A DNA stretch of 59,687 nucleotides from Treponema sp. (GTDB lineage Bacteria; Spirochaetota; Spirochaetia; Treponematales; Treponemataceae). The DNA lies in contig NZ_JAILGZ010000127.1 in assembly GCF_024696245.1 (NCBI RefSeq), positions 1 to 59,687 of the forward strand, given 5' to 3'. Below are positions 36,411 through 41,996 of this stretch, piece after piece. The number at the start of each line of letters is the position of its first letter. Position 1 is the stretch's first letter. Below the pieces are notes generated by a model. The model saw only the letters and a program-made list of their open reading frames with translations. It was not told where the DNA came from and did not search any database. The position numbers were made by a program, and so were the translations under genes.

Positions 36411-36465
36411 AAAGCCCGGCATCCTTGAGTTATTAAAAACTTTACCGGTATGCCGGGCCTTTTTT
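36411..36465 (+). terminator. Rho-independent terminator of tyrS
   Basis: An AAGCCCGGCAT arm (36412-36422) pairs with ATGCCGGGCC-type sequence (36450-36459), followed by six T. The loop is unusually long (about 27 nt). Confidence 0.85.
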
Positions 36466-36491: not shown

Positions 36492-36923
36492 TTACTTTTT
36501 AGATGACTTAAAGATTTTAGAAAAGAGTCTTTTTAGAAAATCCCCAAGCCTTATAAACAAATCACAAAGCCATTTAAGGATTTTCATAAGGAGGGAAGGG
36601 TTTCTTAAACGTTCAAGCCTTTTGTATCCTTCAATAAGTTCTTCGTCGGTAAATTCCTTACGCTGGTTGTTTTCTTCAATTTCCATTTCCAGCTGATGAA
36701 TCTTATCAACAGGAGAAGCAATCATTATGGCATGTATGCTTTCCCAGCCTATAGCTTTTGCTGCTTCAAGACGACGTTCCCCGGCAATAAGTTCGTAATT
36801 GGAATTTATTGTAATAGGGTTAAGCAGTCCAAAAGAACGGAGACTGTCTTTTAATGAAGACAAATCGCCTAAATCCTTTCTGACACGCTTTTTAACTTTG
36901 ATGTCGCTTATTTTAACCAGCAT
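36492..36923 (-). CDS. ParB-like CTPase-domain protein with amphipathic C-terminal tail
   Basis: 143 residues. The N-terminal part is a ParB/Spo0J N-domain with recognisable boxes: an NPITINSNYELIAGERR segment with GERR at 48-51, and ENNQRKEFTDEELIEGYKRL starting at 84, which matches the ParB CTP-binding box ENxxRxxL. The helix-turn-helix and dimerisation domains of chromosomal ParB are missing. Residues about 109-139 form instead a Lys/Arg- and Leu/Ile/Phe-rich amphipathic helix (LLMKILKWLCDLFIRLGDFL), suited to membrane binding. It lies 18 bases after PBP1a with a GGAGGG Shine-Dalgarno, so both are one operon. The function is unknown; it is unlikely to be the main partition ParB. Confidence 0.82.
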   Translation of the reverse strand: MLVKISDIKVKKRVRKDLGDLSSLKDSLRSFGLLNPITINSNYELIAGERRLEAAKAIGWESIHAIMIASPVDKIHQLEMEIEENNQRKEFTDEELIEGYKRLERLRNPSLLMKILKWLCDLFIRLGDFLKRLFSKIFKSSKK

Positions 36924-36941
36924 AGGCCCTCCATTTAGATT

Positions 36942-39539
36942 TTATTGTAAAAGCCAGTTATACATCAAGTCTGCATCTGCATCATCTTCAGAAGAATCTC
37001 CTGAATATGAAGAAGATATTTCATCAGAAGTAAGGTCATAGTTAAGGAAGTCAAGGTCATAGCCTAAATCTTCACCTGTTTCAAACTGGAACTGATAACC
37101 TGATCTCATTCCTTCAATCTGAAGTCTTGTAATTCCTATAAGGTTTGCAGAGTTATTTGTATGGTATGTACAAAGTTCTCCTGGTTCCGTTCCAACAAGA
37201 TAGTAGCCGGTAATTTTATTATCACCACATTCAGGTGTTATAAGACCGCCGCTTTTTGTACATACGTCTAATTTTACAACTCCGTCAGGTATTTCGTCAT
37301 TAAAGGCCTTCCATTTTAAGCCCTGGTGAATGTAATTCATAAAGTCACCCCAGGCTACACCGGCAAGGGTTGAACCTGTAAGTCTTAAACCCAGGGACTG
37401 CCCCGGTCTGTCAAATCCAAACCAGAATACTGATGTATAATAAGGTGTAAATCCTACTGTCCATGCATCGGCCCAGTTCTGGGTTGTACCGGTTTTACCT
37501 GCAGCAGGCATAAGGAAGCTTTGTCCTGTATCAGAGTCCGTAAACCTGAATTTGTTTCCGCTTCCTTTCTTTTCTTTAAGACAATAAGAGGTAGAATCCC
37601 AGCTTGAACCAAAGCGGAGAGTTCCTGAATCAACGGTCTGCTTAAGCATTTCCTGCATAATAAAGGCTGTCTGATGGGAAATAATCTGAGCTGAACTTCC
37701 CTTTGACTTAAGTTCAATCTTTGCATCCTTTTCCGGATTAAGGATAATGTTACCGTTCTGGTCTTCTACAGTCCTGATTGCAATAGGAACAACTTCATAA
37801 CCATTGTTGGCAATTGTAGAGAAGGCTTTAGCAACTTCTATAGGTCTGACTGAACATACACCAAGTCCAAGAGGATAAACAGGTTCAAAGTGTCTGTCTG
37901 CAAGTTCTTTCTGAGGAATGCCGTAAAGGGAACTTGTTCTGTCTATAGCTGCACTAAATCCAATTGCATCAAGTACTTTAAGTGAAGGTACGTTCATGGA
38001 GTGGGCCAGGGCATACCAGATTTCTACGTCTCCTTCCCACACACCCTTAAAGTCCTGAGGAATATAGGCAGAGCCGTCTTCCTTCTGGAATACAACAGGA
38101 GTATCACTTACGATGGTGCTCCAGGTAAACTGTCTTGAATCAATGGCTGCAGAATAATAAAGAGGCTTGATTGTAGAACCAGGCTGGAGTTTAGCCTGTA
38201 CAGCCCTGATAAACTGATTCTGCTTGTCATATTTGGAACCGCCTACAAGGGCATTGATGTAACCTGTAGAGTTCTGTAAAGAAATCATGGTTCCTTCTAT
38301 AGTAGTTTTTTCGTCGTTTTCACGGATAAGGGCATTGCCTTTTGTAACGATATTGGATTTAAGGTTTTCCATGCCGTTCATTAAGGCAAGAAGGTCAATA
38401 ACAGGGTTAATTTCTGTCCTGTACTTTTTTATAACAAGATTCTGGGCCCTCTGGTCATTAACGTGAAGGTCAGGAAGATTAAATACAAGCATACAGAGTT
38501 CAGAGAAAGGAGTGTACCTTTTAAATGCCTCCCTGTCTTTTGATGCCATAGTACTTTTGTACCTGTCATTGGCATATTTTATGTAGTCCTGCATTATCTG
38601 TTCAGCCTGTTTCTGATGGGACAGGTTAAGTGTTGTATTTACAACAAAACCTCCGGAATAAAGGTCATTGCTTCCGTAAAGCATTCCGCTTAATTCACGT
38701 CTTACATATTCACTGAACCATGGGGCTTCGTCTGTCCTTAAGTCGTAGGCAGATGTGCCTGTACGGGTATAGTCAAAGGAACCCCAGTATTCTTCAAAGG
38801 AATCTTCACTCTGCTGTTTTGTAATGTAACCTTCATCAATCATGGCATTAAGAACGCTTATCTGCCTTCTTTGAGCTCTGTTAGGATGTTCAAAAGGGTT
38901 ATAGTAAACTGGGTTTGACAGCTGAATTACAAGAATTGCTGCTTCTGCCGGGGTAATTTCCATCGGACCATGACCAAAGTAATATTTGCAGGCTGCGTTT
39001 ACACCGTATGTTCCGCCTCCAAAGTATATTTTGTTCATGTAAAGTTCCATGATTTCATTTTTAGAAAAGCGGCGTTCCATCTGAATGGCCCACCAGAGTT
39101 CCTTAAGCTTTCTTTTTGCAGAGATTTCAGTTCGGTCACAGTAAAGGGTTCCTGCAATCTGCTGGGTAAGGGTTGAACCTCCTCCTAAAGAAGAGTGGGT
39201 AAGTACACCAAAGACAGCACGGAAAAGGGCTTTTGTACTGAATCCAGGATGTTCATAAAAGATATGGTCTTCGCGGGTTATAAGGGCATCCTTCATAAGC
39301 TGTGGAAGGTCATCAAGAGCTATGATTTCCCTTTTTTCGTCACTGGAAAATTCCGTAATAAGTTCACCGTTTATATCAGTAATCCTTGTAGGAAGGGCTG
39401 TTTCAAATTCAGTAAAATTTTCAATATTTTCTATATTTTTAGTTGCAGACAGGGCAAGACCAAGCAGAGAACCTATAAGAATCGCATTAAAAAACGAAAG
39501 GAAAATAACTGCATAAGGCCATATTTTTCTTTTATTCAT
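36942..39539 (-). CDS. Class A penicillin-binding protein (PBP1a type)
   Basis: Bifunctional cell-wall synthase anchored by one N-terminal membrane helix (about 8-32). 865 residues. Glycosyltransferase domain with catalytic E90 (LITREDHIFYEHPGF) and GGSTLTQQIAG. Transpeptidase domain with S455-xx-K458 (GSTIK), SMN at 514-516 and KTGT at 682-685. All active-site motifs are intact. An acidic Ser/Asp tail (YSGDSSEDDADAD) closes the protein. No Shine-Dalgarno precedes the ATG; a well-spaced promoter ends 8 bases before it. Co-transcribed with the ParB-like gene. Confidence 0.95.
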   Translation of the reverse strand: MNKRKIWPYAVIFLSFFNAILIGSLLGLALSATKNIENIENFTEFETALPTRITDINGELITEFSSDEKREIIALDDLPQLMKDALITREDHIFYEHPGFSTKALFRAVFGVLTHSSLGGGSTLTQQIAGTLYCDRTEISAKRKLKELWWAIQMERRFSKNEIMELYMNKIYFGGGTYGVNAACKYYFGHGPMEITPAEAAILVIQLSNPVYYNPFEHPNRAQRRQISVLNAMIDEGYITKQQSEDSFEEYWGSFDYTRTGTSAYDLRTDEAPWFSEYVRRELSGMLYGSNDLYSGGFVVNTTLNLSHQKQAEQIMQDYIKYANDRYKSTMASKDREAFKRYTPFSELCMLVFNLPDLHVNDQRAQNLVIKKYRTEINPVIDLLALMNGMENLKSNIVTKGNALIRENDEKTTIEGTMISLQNSTGYINALVGGSKYDKQNQFIRAVQAKLQPGSTIKPLYYSAAIDSRQFTWSTIVSDTPVVFQKEDGSAYIPQDFKGVWEGDVEIWYALAHSMNVPSLKVLDAIGFSAAIDRTSSLYGIPQKELADRHFEPVYPLGLGVCSVRPIEVAKAFSTIANNGYEVVPIAIRTVEDQNGNIILNPEKDAKIELKSKGSSAQIISHQTAFIMQEMLKQTVDSGTLRFGSSWDSTSYCLKEKKGSGNKFRFTDSDTGQSFLMPAAGKTGTTQNWADAWTVGFTPYYTSVFWFGFDRPGQSLGLRLTGSTLAGVAWGDFMNYIHQGLKWKAFNDEIPDGVVKLDVCTKSGGLITPECGDNKITGYYLVGTEPGELCTYHTNNSANLIGITRLQIEGMRSGYQFQFETGEDLGYDLDFLNYDLTSDEISSSYSGDSSEDDADADLMYNWLLQ

Positions 39540-39787: not shown

Positions 39788-40774
39788 TTATTCTTCTTCT
39801 GTTATGAGGGCATCCATATTTATAAGGAAGGTATAGCTTCTTCCATTTACGGCGGTAAAGTTCTTTATTATTTCATAGCCGCCCATCTGGAATTTTACAG
39901 TATGTTCCCCAACAGCCATTATTATGTCATGGCTGAAGTCTTCTATCTTTTCTTCGTCAATAAAGAGAATACTGCCTTCCGGTACTGCAATATGGAGCAG
40001 GGGTTTTATATCCTGAAATTCAACGGTAAGCTCTGTGGTTTTTGCAGGCTCAATGCTGATTGTACGCATTTCATTCCTGTAATAATCACTTACAATGCTT
40101 ACGTTATGCATTCCTGCTTCAAGAGTATAAAAATTCTTTACTGAAGGGCAGGGGGTTCCGTCTATAAATACCGAATAAGGAAGTTCTGCTGTATCCTGGG
40201 GAAAAATAACATTAAGGTGAAGCTTACCCGAATCCTTAAAAATAGGCCTTACGTAAAGTTCCACACTTCCCTGGAGAAGTTCCCTGCTGTTTTTATCTGT
40301 AGTAGACAGACGGAAAAATACATAACCGTCTTCTATAGATTGAAGTTTTTCTGACATGGCAGAAAGGGCATCTTTTTTAAGGCTGCTGTCTGAGTCAAAA
40401 GGTATCCTTATTGTAACTCCCAAAGAATTTCTGAGGGTGCCGCTAAGGGAAGGTGTGCCGCTGTAATCAAAACGGTCTTCTGATGGTACAGGCTTTACAC
40501 ATGAAAAAAGAGTCCAGCTGATATTCTGACTTATGGAAGCTGTTTCCTGAGGTACCTGAATATAAAGTTCCACTCCCTGCAGAAAGACTTTTGAAGAAGG
40601 CAGTTTTATGGTAAGTGCATCATTAACCCCCATAGAAATCTGCTTTCTTGAAGTGCCGTCTTCCAGGCTGAGACTGTGAGTTTTCTGAACCCTGAAGGAT
40701 TCACCTGAAGCTGAAAAAGATAAAAATGCAGCTGCAAGGAGAAGCCAGAGTTTTTTTAAATAAAAGCTCATCAT
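39788..40774 (-). CDS. Predicted periplasmic PEGA-like domain protein
   Basis: 328 residues with a signal peptide (KKLWLLLAAAFLSFSASG, cut before ESFRV). The mature part is beta-rich. The C-terminal half contains two PEGA-like repeats with the pattern of a small surface-binding fold: SVFIDGTPCPSV...LEAGMHNVSIVSD and SILFIDEEKIED...AVGEHTVKFQMGGYE. It probably binds envelope polymers or partners. I do not recognise the N-terminal part. Tandem ATGs (MM) open the gene, with TATAAA 6 bases before and no Shine-Dalgarno. It lies 92 bases downstream of the M23 peptidase gene on the same strand. Confidence 0.65.
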   Translation of the reverse strand: MMSFYLKKLWLLLAAAFLSFSASGESFRVQKTHSLSLEDGTSRKQISMGVNDALTIKLPSSKVFLQGVELYIQVPQETASISQNISWTLFSCVKPVPSEDRFDYSGTPSLSGTLRNSLGVTIRIPFDSDSSLKKDALSAMSEKLQSIEDGYVFFRLSTTDKNSRELLQGSVELYVRPIFKDSGKLHLNVIFPQDTAELPYSVFIDGTPCPSVKNFYTLEAGMHNVSIVSDYYRNEMRTISIEPAKTTELTVEFQDIKPLLHIAVPEGSILFIDEEKIEDFSHDIIMAVGEHTVKFQMGGYEIIKNFTAVNGRSYTFLINMDALITEEE

Positions 40775-40866: not shown

Positions 40867-41793
40867 TCAATCTTTTTCAGTGTTTTTAAGCTGATGAAGA
40901 TAATCTGAAGGATCCCTGCTTTTTCCCCCGTTGTGAATTTCAAAGTGAAGGTGAGGGCCTGTAGTAAGTCCTGTCAGACCTACTTCCCCGATTTTTTCTC
41001 CTCCGGATACCACCTGTCCTTCTGTAACATCAATTTTGCTCAGGTGGGCATAAAGGGTTTCAAGGGAATAATCATGGCTTACAACAATATAGGAACCATA
41101 AACTTCATCATTAGTAACTGCCTTTGTAACAATTCCGTTTTTACAGCTGAATACATGACTTCCTACAGGCGCTGCAAGGTCAATTCCTTCATGTTTTTTC
41201 CATTTTCCGCTTATCGGGCTGATTCTCATGCCATAGGATGAAGTAACTACAGCTTCTTCTAAGGGCAGCCTCATTCCGGAAATAAGAAAAAATGCCCTGG
41301 ATGAGGGAGACATTCTTTTACCTTCCAGAAACCAGTATTTTTGTCCGTTTATAGTGTAGGAAGGTGTTCTGGATGTAATGCTCTGGTTATATTCACTTCT
41401 TAAAAGTACTTCCAGGGAATTTGAAGGAGACTGGCTGATAAAAAGGCCGTTTATTGTTGGCAGAATCAGGCTTTTGCCTTCTATGTTTTGTTTTGCATCT
41501 ATAATTCCATTTGCAGTAGCCAGGGTTTCCTGCCTGAGCATACAGCGGGAAGATACAGTAAAGAGGGTATCTTTTTTTACGCAGGTATAAGTATAAAAGG
41601 ACATCTGACTGTCCCTGTCATTAAAAAAGGCTGTGTTGTTTTCTTCTATTTCTTCCTGATACTGTTTAAAAATAAGGTTTCTTGAAGAGAGCTCAGGTAT
41701 TTCTACATACTGCTGGGCCTGAGTCTTTATCAGGGGGAAAAGGAGGGTAAAGAGAAGTACTTTATATGAAAAAAAATTTTTTATTTTCTGCAT
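40867..41793 (-). CDS. M23-family (LytM-type) peptidoglycan endopeptidase
   Basis: 308 residues from the ATG at 41793, which has AGGGAAAG upstream and opens a proper signal peptide (NFFSYKVLLFTLLFPLIKTQAQ). A longer frame would put 47 unrelated residues first. The C-terminal M23 domain has the zinc ligands in GIRISPISG-like context: H and D of KHEGIDLAAP, and the HLHFEI motif, so it should be an active or zinc-binding enzyme cleaving peptide cross-bridges in the periplasm. The N-terminal ~150 residues resemble a LysM-less binding region. It overlaps the upstream membrane-protein gene by 13 bases. Confidence 0.88.
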   Translation of the reverse strand: MQKIKNFFSYKVLLFTLLFPLIKTQAQQYVEIPELSSRNLIFKQYQEEIEENNTAFFNDRDSQMSFYTYTCVKKDTLFTVSSRCMLRQETLATANGIIDAKQNIEGKSLILPTINGLFISQSPSNSLEVLLRSEYNQSITSRTPSYTINGQKYWFLEGKRMSPSSRAFFLISGMRLPLEEAVVTSSYGMRISPISGKWKKHEGIDLAAPVGSHVFSCKNGIVTKAVTNDEVYGSYIVVSHDYSLETLYAHLSKIDVTEGQVVSGGEKIGEVGLTGLTTGPHLHFEIHNGGKSRDPSDYLHQLKNTEKD

Positions 41794-41996
41794 ACTTTCC
41801 CTTTGATTTTTTTTATCAGGGGAATAATTACAGCAAGAGCTGCTGCACAAATTATTACTATTGAATAGCTGGATGGAGAGATAGAAGCCCATTTCCACAA
41901 GGGAAAAGCAATCGCTAAAGAAAGAAGGGCGCAAAGTAATATAAAAAAGAGGGCTGTTAAAAGTCCTGTAACTGTCTTTTTTATTGAATTAAACAT
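41781..41996 (-). CDS. Small membrane protein, two predicted helices
   Basis: 71 residues with two hydrophobic segments (about 10-33 and 43-61) and a positively charged end (LIKKIKGKVCRK), suggesting both termini in the cytoplasm. I recognise no family. Its last codons overlap the start of the M23 peptidase gene by 13 bases, implying translational coupling and perhaps a joint role at the envelope. The ATG is preceded by TATATT 6 bases upstream and no Shine-Dalgarno. Confidence 0.6.
   Translation of the reverse strand: MFNSIKKTVTGLLTALFFILLCALLSLAIAFPLWKWASISPSSYSIVIICAAALAVIIPLIKKIKGKVCRK

Follow-up and report, generated by a model that had tools for sequence, protein, structure and literature searches.

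To our knowledge, cytidine triphosphate (CTP) switches of the ParB type are known almost exclusively on DNA, and Noc acts together with DNA at the membrane. In both ParB and Noc, the N-terminal folds pair when nucleotide is bound. For Noc, this pairing is proposed to release an amphipathic helix for contact with the membrane, and CTP binding switches the membrane binding of Noc (PMC8429893). Single-domain proteins of the same ParB-CTPase fold occur in phages and archaea; these are short and consist mostly of the fold, and the bacterial members termed "single-domain" in a 2025 survey mostly have at least 300 amino acids (PMC12704722). Here, we analyze an orphan gene for a ParB_N protein in a 59,687-nucleotide window of Treponema sp. 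(positions 1 to 59,687 of contig NZ_JAILGZ010000127.1, assembly GCF_024696245.1). The gene lies on the minus strand at 36492..36923, runs from ATG to TAA and encodes 143 amino acids. Our tentative reading, whose chances we put slightly short of even, is that spirochaetes use the product for envelope growth, as a membrane-anchored, DNA-independent protein built on the ParB nucleotide-switch fold. The features on which it rests can be read directly in the sequence: a preserved binding pocket, no DNA-binding or dimerization module, a conserved tail, and a location behind the gene of a class A penicillin-binding protein (PBP) of the PBP1A family, referred to below as PBP1a.

Pfam, AlphaFold2 and structural matching divide the 143-residue protein into a ParB-CTPase fold (residues 1-107) and a C-terminal amphipathic helix (residues 111-142). 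The Pfam family ParB_N (PF02195) matches residues 11-85 with an E-value of 1.2e-10 and 41.7 bits, against a gathering score of 26.3, and the Pfam scan of the whole protein reported neither a helix-turn-helix (HTH) nor a dimer-domain family. In the AlphaFold2 model (mean predicted local distance difference test score of 94.2), the ParB fold extends to residue 107 and is followed by the single helix only. VIA-align superposes residues 1-109 on chains of CTP-type ParB with Z up to 13.3. Structures of M. xanthus ParB in complex with analogues or products of CTP match best (Z 13.2-13.3), followed by B. subtilis ParB (12.8), Noc (12.5) and PadC (11.4). Noc is also the best PDB sequence-profile match (7ng0, E-value 1.8e-17). 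Sulfiredoxin matches less well, with Z up to 10.1, as does serine kinase (Z ~6.7). On the strength of the common fold, the protein could be imagined as a small enzyme akin to sulfiredoxin or free serine kinase that uses adenosine triphosphate. We regard this as highly improbable, since the best matches in both sequence and structure are to CTP-type ParB and Noc, and since the EN..R signature of Box III is ParB-like and invariant.

A canonical ParB or Noc identity was rejected because the corresponding modules are absent and the scores fall under the cut-offs of the respective models (49.7 against 58.45 for TIGR00180; 52.4 bits against 315 for the NCBIfam model nucleoid_noc). The orphan shares with Noc of Bacillus and Geobacillus the ParB-CTPase fold, the same binding residues and an amphipathic helix for the membrane. 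Noc, however, has HTH and dimer domains, loads on DNA and carries its helix in the N-terminal 10 residues, whereas the N-terminus of the orphan forms the first strand of the fold and its helix is C-terminal, replacing the DNA module. With canonical chromosomal ParB (Spo0J), the orphan has in common the nucleotide fold and Boxes I-III; it differs in having neither the HTH nor the C-terminal dimer domain and in being flanked by PBP1a and tyrS rather than by parAB. A further relative, PadC of Myxococcus xanthus, also has a ParB fold encoded outside parAB, beside the envelope/cytoskeletal bacNOP genes, and an adaptor role, but the parts of its description available to us mention no amphipathic tail or PBP linkage (PMC5703909).

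A canonical parAB pair is present elsewhere in the same genome (locus L002 in our labeling; ParA of 262 and ParB of 339 amino acids). One can therefore ask whether the orphan is a membrane-bound partner of canonical ParB, the folds of the two proteins pairing so that the partition complex is tethered to the membrane and wall growth is coupled to chromosome position. The match of the orphan to ParB in fold and binding residues would permit such pairing, and Noc provides the precedent of a ParB-type protein that brings DNA to the membrane (PMC8429893). Set against this, the orphan family is distant from canonical ParB, forming its own long branch in the tree (length 1.08, support 0.70), and the gene is linked to PBP1a and not to parAB. 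We consider the partnership rather unlikely.

The residues expected to contact the nucleotide are preserved. The P motif (Box II), G48-E49-R50-R51, is encoded at 36771..36782 and Box III, E84-N85-N86-Q87-R88, at 36660..36674, both on the minus strand. G48, R50, R51, E84, N85 and R88 are invariant in 69/69 homologues of the phylum-wide alignment, E49 being variable. An alignment with Noc and ParB shows that the invariant pocket residues correspond to G77 and R80 of B. subtilis ParB, changes of which abolish or weaken CTP binding (PMC8494293), and to R89 and N121 of Noc, which are required for normal CTP binding (PMC8429893). Change of either of two glutamates of B. subtilis ParB, E78 or E111, stops hydrolysis (PMC8494293); E49 aligns with the first (and with E93 of M. 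xanthus ParB) and E84 with the second, so that one hydrolysis glutamate equivalent is invariant. Another hydrolysis residue, Q52 of M. xanthus ParB (PMC9178275), falls opposite the non-conserved K11, in a stretch where the alignment is less sure. Judging from these residues, the protein probably binds a nucleoside triphosphate (NTP), and the chance that this is CTP appears about even; the natural expectation is that the nucleotide is bound but hydrolyzed slowly or in an altered manner.

The tail (residues 109-143, 36495..36599, minus strand) is an amphipathic Leu/Phe/Lys helix by model, hydrophobic moment and alignment. In the window protein, its hydrophobic moment (muH) is 0.68 and its net charge +4 (shuffle p 0.03). 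For the tails of 69 homologues, the best 18-residue window has a median muH of 0.70 and a charge of +4; muH exceeds 0.4 in all 69, and 60 of them beat shuffles of their own sequence at p<0.05. Averaged by alignment column, the hydrophobicity of the tail has its maximum at 100 degrees per residue, the value of an alpha-helix. The modeled helix comprises 32 residues and begins at the point where the DNA module of ParB begins. The consensus of the short tail across the phylum is NPGFFRRIWNAIKRFFKRLF. The window protein has ~11 residues beyond this norm, and since these equal three helical turns, the hydrophobic face stays in register. A longer form of 195-225 amino acids, also located behind PBP1a, is found in seven Treponemataceae genera (L104, L106, L107, L108, L109, L111 and L112). 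Behind the fold and tail that it shares with the shorter proteins, it carries two strongly hydrophobic, transmembrane-like segments, and its AlphaFold2 model contains long helices at 130-144, 146-163 and 168-204. That one lineage has apparently added a transmembrane pair after the amphipathic tail is a good indication that this tail serves membrane attachment, and association of the protein with the membrane is predicted with high confidence.

The original prediction, made from the letters of the window alone, had placed GERR at residues 48-51 and ENNQR at 84-88, had seen no HTH or dimer domain but a Leu/Phe/Lys amphipathic helix in their place, and had put a PBP1a gene 18 bases away; it had named no strand. 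The motif positions are borne out by the translation, and the missing domains by the Pfam scan and by the model, where only helix 111-142 follows the fold. A muH above 0.4 recurs in all 69 homologue tails, and the neighbor scores over the TIGR02074 cut-off, with 18 bases between its stop and the ATG of the orphan.

Homologues were searched for in the phylum Spirochaetota only, by a scan of genome contigs and a phylum search with 60 fetched loci, roughly one per genus or family. In alignment A2, orphans score at least ~94 bits in frames of mostly 130-200 amino acids (a few being cut by contig ends), separate from canonical ParB at ~55-78 bits in frames of mostly 230-340 amino acids. The 70 Treponema homologues have 60-71% identity and are mostly better conserved than the neighboring PBP1a (44-67% at the Treponema loci). 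This conservation, along with the pocket that is invariant phylum-wide, led us to reject a chance or decayed open reading frame. Homologues of ~130 amino acids, in which a short tail follows ~105 residues of ParB_N, occur in many Spirochaetota families, so that the same-tailed relatives for which the original prediction had suggested looking do exist, and most of the spirochaetes sampled carry an orphan. The A2 scan detected none in 9/9 genomes of family f29 and in 3/5 of family f25.

The PBP1a gene lies directly upstream of the orphan, on the same strand and 3-303 bases away, in 69/70 Treponema loci; at the one remaining locus, the contig breaks off. Among 148 genomes of class Spirochaetia, a set that includes family f6 genomes of 0.9-1.9 Mb, PBP1a was found in 122, the orphan in 105 and both in 97. 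Their co-presence has an odds ratio of 8.7 (p 3e-6, uncorrected for phylogeny), and family f12, which has no class A PBP, also has no orphan. The two genes are adjacent and in the same order in 90 of the 97 genomes; in the remaining seven, they are on different contigs (four), truly unlinked (two) or separated by gcv genes (one). The PBP1a neighborhood is thus conserved in relatives across the class, a point on which the original prediction had depended. M23 peptidase and/or PEGA genes lie upstream in 31 class loci: an M23 homologue upstream of PBP1a in 27 and a PEGA homologue, nearly always just upstream of PBP1a, in 24. The orphan and PBP1a are thus often part of a conserved envelope cluster of class Spirochaetia, with the order M23 peptidase - PEGA - PBP1a - ParB fold.

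Taken as a whole, the proposed mechanism is as follows. The protein would bind an NTP, CTP being the likeliest, and binding would pair two ParB folds, as it does in ParB and Noc. Since the helix starts where the DNA module of ParB would, pairing would bring two amphipathic tails, each weak on its own, next to each other, giving a dimer held at the inner membrane without DNA. Such a dimer could act as an adaptor that places or activates envelope machinery, with PBP1a from the same operon, among others, as its likely client in class Spirochaetia; release would follow slow hydrolysis or loss of the NTP. A direct contact with PBP1a is possible, though we lean against it. We would give slightly less credence to the broadest version of the idea, a phylum-wide family that uses the ParB switch purely at the membrane, where NTP-driven pairing gathers the tails and controls where or when the products of the PBP1a-M23-PEGA genes work.

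Several observations weigh against a nucleotide-switched envelope protein tied to PBP1a. E49 is a glutamate in 67/71 sequences of the Treponema set but in only 13/60 phylum-wide, which makes a ParB-like hydrolysis cycle outside Treponema doubtful. Neither sequence nor AlphaFold3 reliably predicts the nucleotide of ParB-fold proteins, and 17/28 such proteins bound no NTP when assayed (PMC12704722). The same two facts, loss of a hydrolysis residue in most of the phylum and the frequent lack of NTP binding, would suit a plain membrane scaffold in which the ParB fold is a protein-binding surface and nothing is switched. Six pocket residues without a single exception in 69 sequences argue for a bound ligand instead, and we judge the scaffold improbable.

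The remaining contrary points concern the neighborhood. Eight genomes of families f61, f62 and f70 keep the orphan without a Transgly domain anywhere in the genome, and in most of them (L194, L195, L196, L197, L199 and L200), a gene for an M29-type aminopeptidase directly follows it; strict dependence on PBP1a was rejected on the basis of these eight. Conversely, 25 of the 122 PBP1a-bearing genomes of class Spirochaetia, G056 among them, have no orphan, and in several such genomes of the window's genus, PBP1a is followed by tyrS directly. Outside Spirochaetia and family f22, no PBP adjoins the orphan, and its neighbors vary. Together, the persistence of the orphan without class A PBPs, its absence from 25 genomes with PBP1a and its lack of linkage in most other classes make an obligate regulator of PBP1a improbable. 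Thus, of the CTP-controlled PBP1a regulator that the original prediction had put forward, the ParB pocket, the tail and the linkage stand, while a role dedicated to PBP1a is not supported.

The Transgly-free genomes and the varied neighbors would also be expected of a general membrane-bound NTP sensor unrelated to PBP1a, its neighborhood being inherited operon order. In f79, a family of Spirochaetia, and in f22, which belongs to another class, the order PBP1a - gcvT (- gcvH) - gcvPA - gcvPB - orphan is found on one strand (L213, L214 and L209). The link to PBP1a is therefore older than the class, and loss of the gcv genes may have produced the adjacency seen today, which is compatible with the sensor too. 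Adjacency in 90/97 genomes over many families would, however, be hard to keep without selection, and the remaining members of the cluster (M23, PEGA and PBP1a) are envelope-related. We therefore hold a general sensor to be unlikely, if less so than the scaffold or the ParB partner, and retain a role in envelope growth as our reading.

Within the window, the 18 bp that separate the stop codon of PBP1a from the orphan ATG (36924..36941, minus strand) contain a GGAGG ribosome-binding site; the reverse complement of this gap reads AATGGAGGGCCTATG. PBP1a (36942..39539, minus strand, 865 amino acids) matches TIGR02074 with an E-value of 2e-168 and has the Pfam Transgly and Transpeptidase domains. 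The upstream members of the conserved neighborhood follow on the same strand: a PEGA-domain protein with a signal-like N-terminus (39788..40774; PF08308, E-value 1.4e-6) and an M23-family peptidase (40867..41934; PF01551, E-value 2.1e-29). On the side opposite PBP1a, tyrS converges on the orphan gene, and the operon and tyrS likely have a common terminator at 36412..36464 (no strand assigned), read from the sequence as the stem GCCCGGCAT / ATGCCGGGC flanked by runs of A and T. It is absent from the list given by a consensus scan that allowed loops of up to 8.

Other arrangements were seen in individual genomes. At L103 (genus g2), the orphan has moved away from PBP1a, and both adjoin acyl-CoA-synthetase-like genes. 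At L207, L211 and L212, gcv-like genes come after PBP1a, and no orphan was seen. In two families outside class Spirochaetia (L150 and L154), the orphan follows a RuvA-like gene; at L150, it overlaps a gene for an NfeD/ClpP-like membrane protein. At L153, L159 and L160, the gene after the orphan encodes a large exported protein resembling membrane-bound metallopeptidases, with an HExxH-type stretch, and at L151 and L155, an RnfG-like gene takes its place (these names were given by reading the sequences).

Our literature search found no published description of a spirochaete orphan ParB-fold family, in agreement with the original prediction, which knew of no such arrangement. A search on BB0731, which we take to be a Borrelia gene beside a PBP gene, gave no paper, and one on the loss of PBPs in Sphaerochaeta yielded no usable information. 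The main text of the 2025 survey mentions neither a spirochaete family nor an amphipathic tail (PMC12704722). A phylum-wide family in which the switch pocket is kept and DNA binding is swapped for a membrane tail would show reuse of the fold. For the placing of new cell wall in helical spirochaetes, the orphan offers a testable candidate in the PBP1a operon, one that at ~130 residues is easy to purify and assay. If the broadest version of the idea is true, spirochaetes would possess a ParB-type nucleotide switch devoted to the growth of the cell wall.
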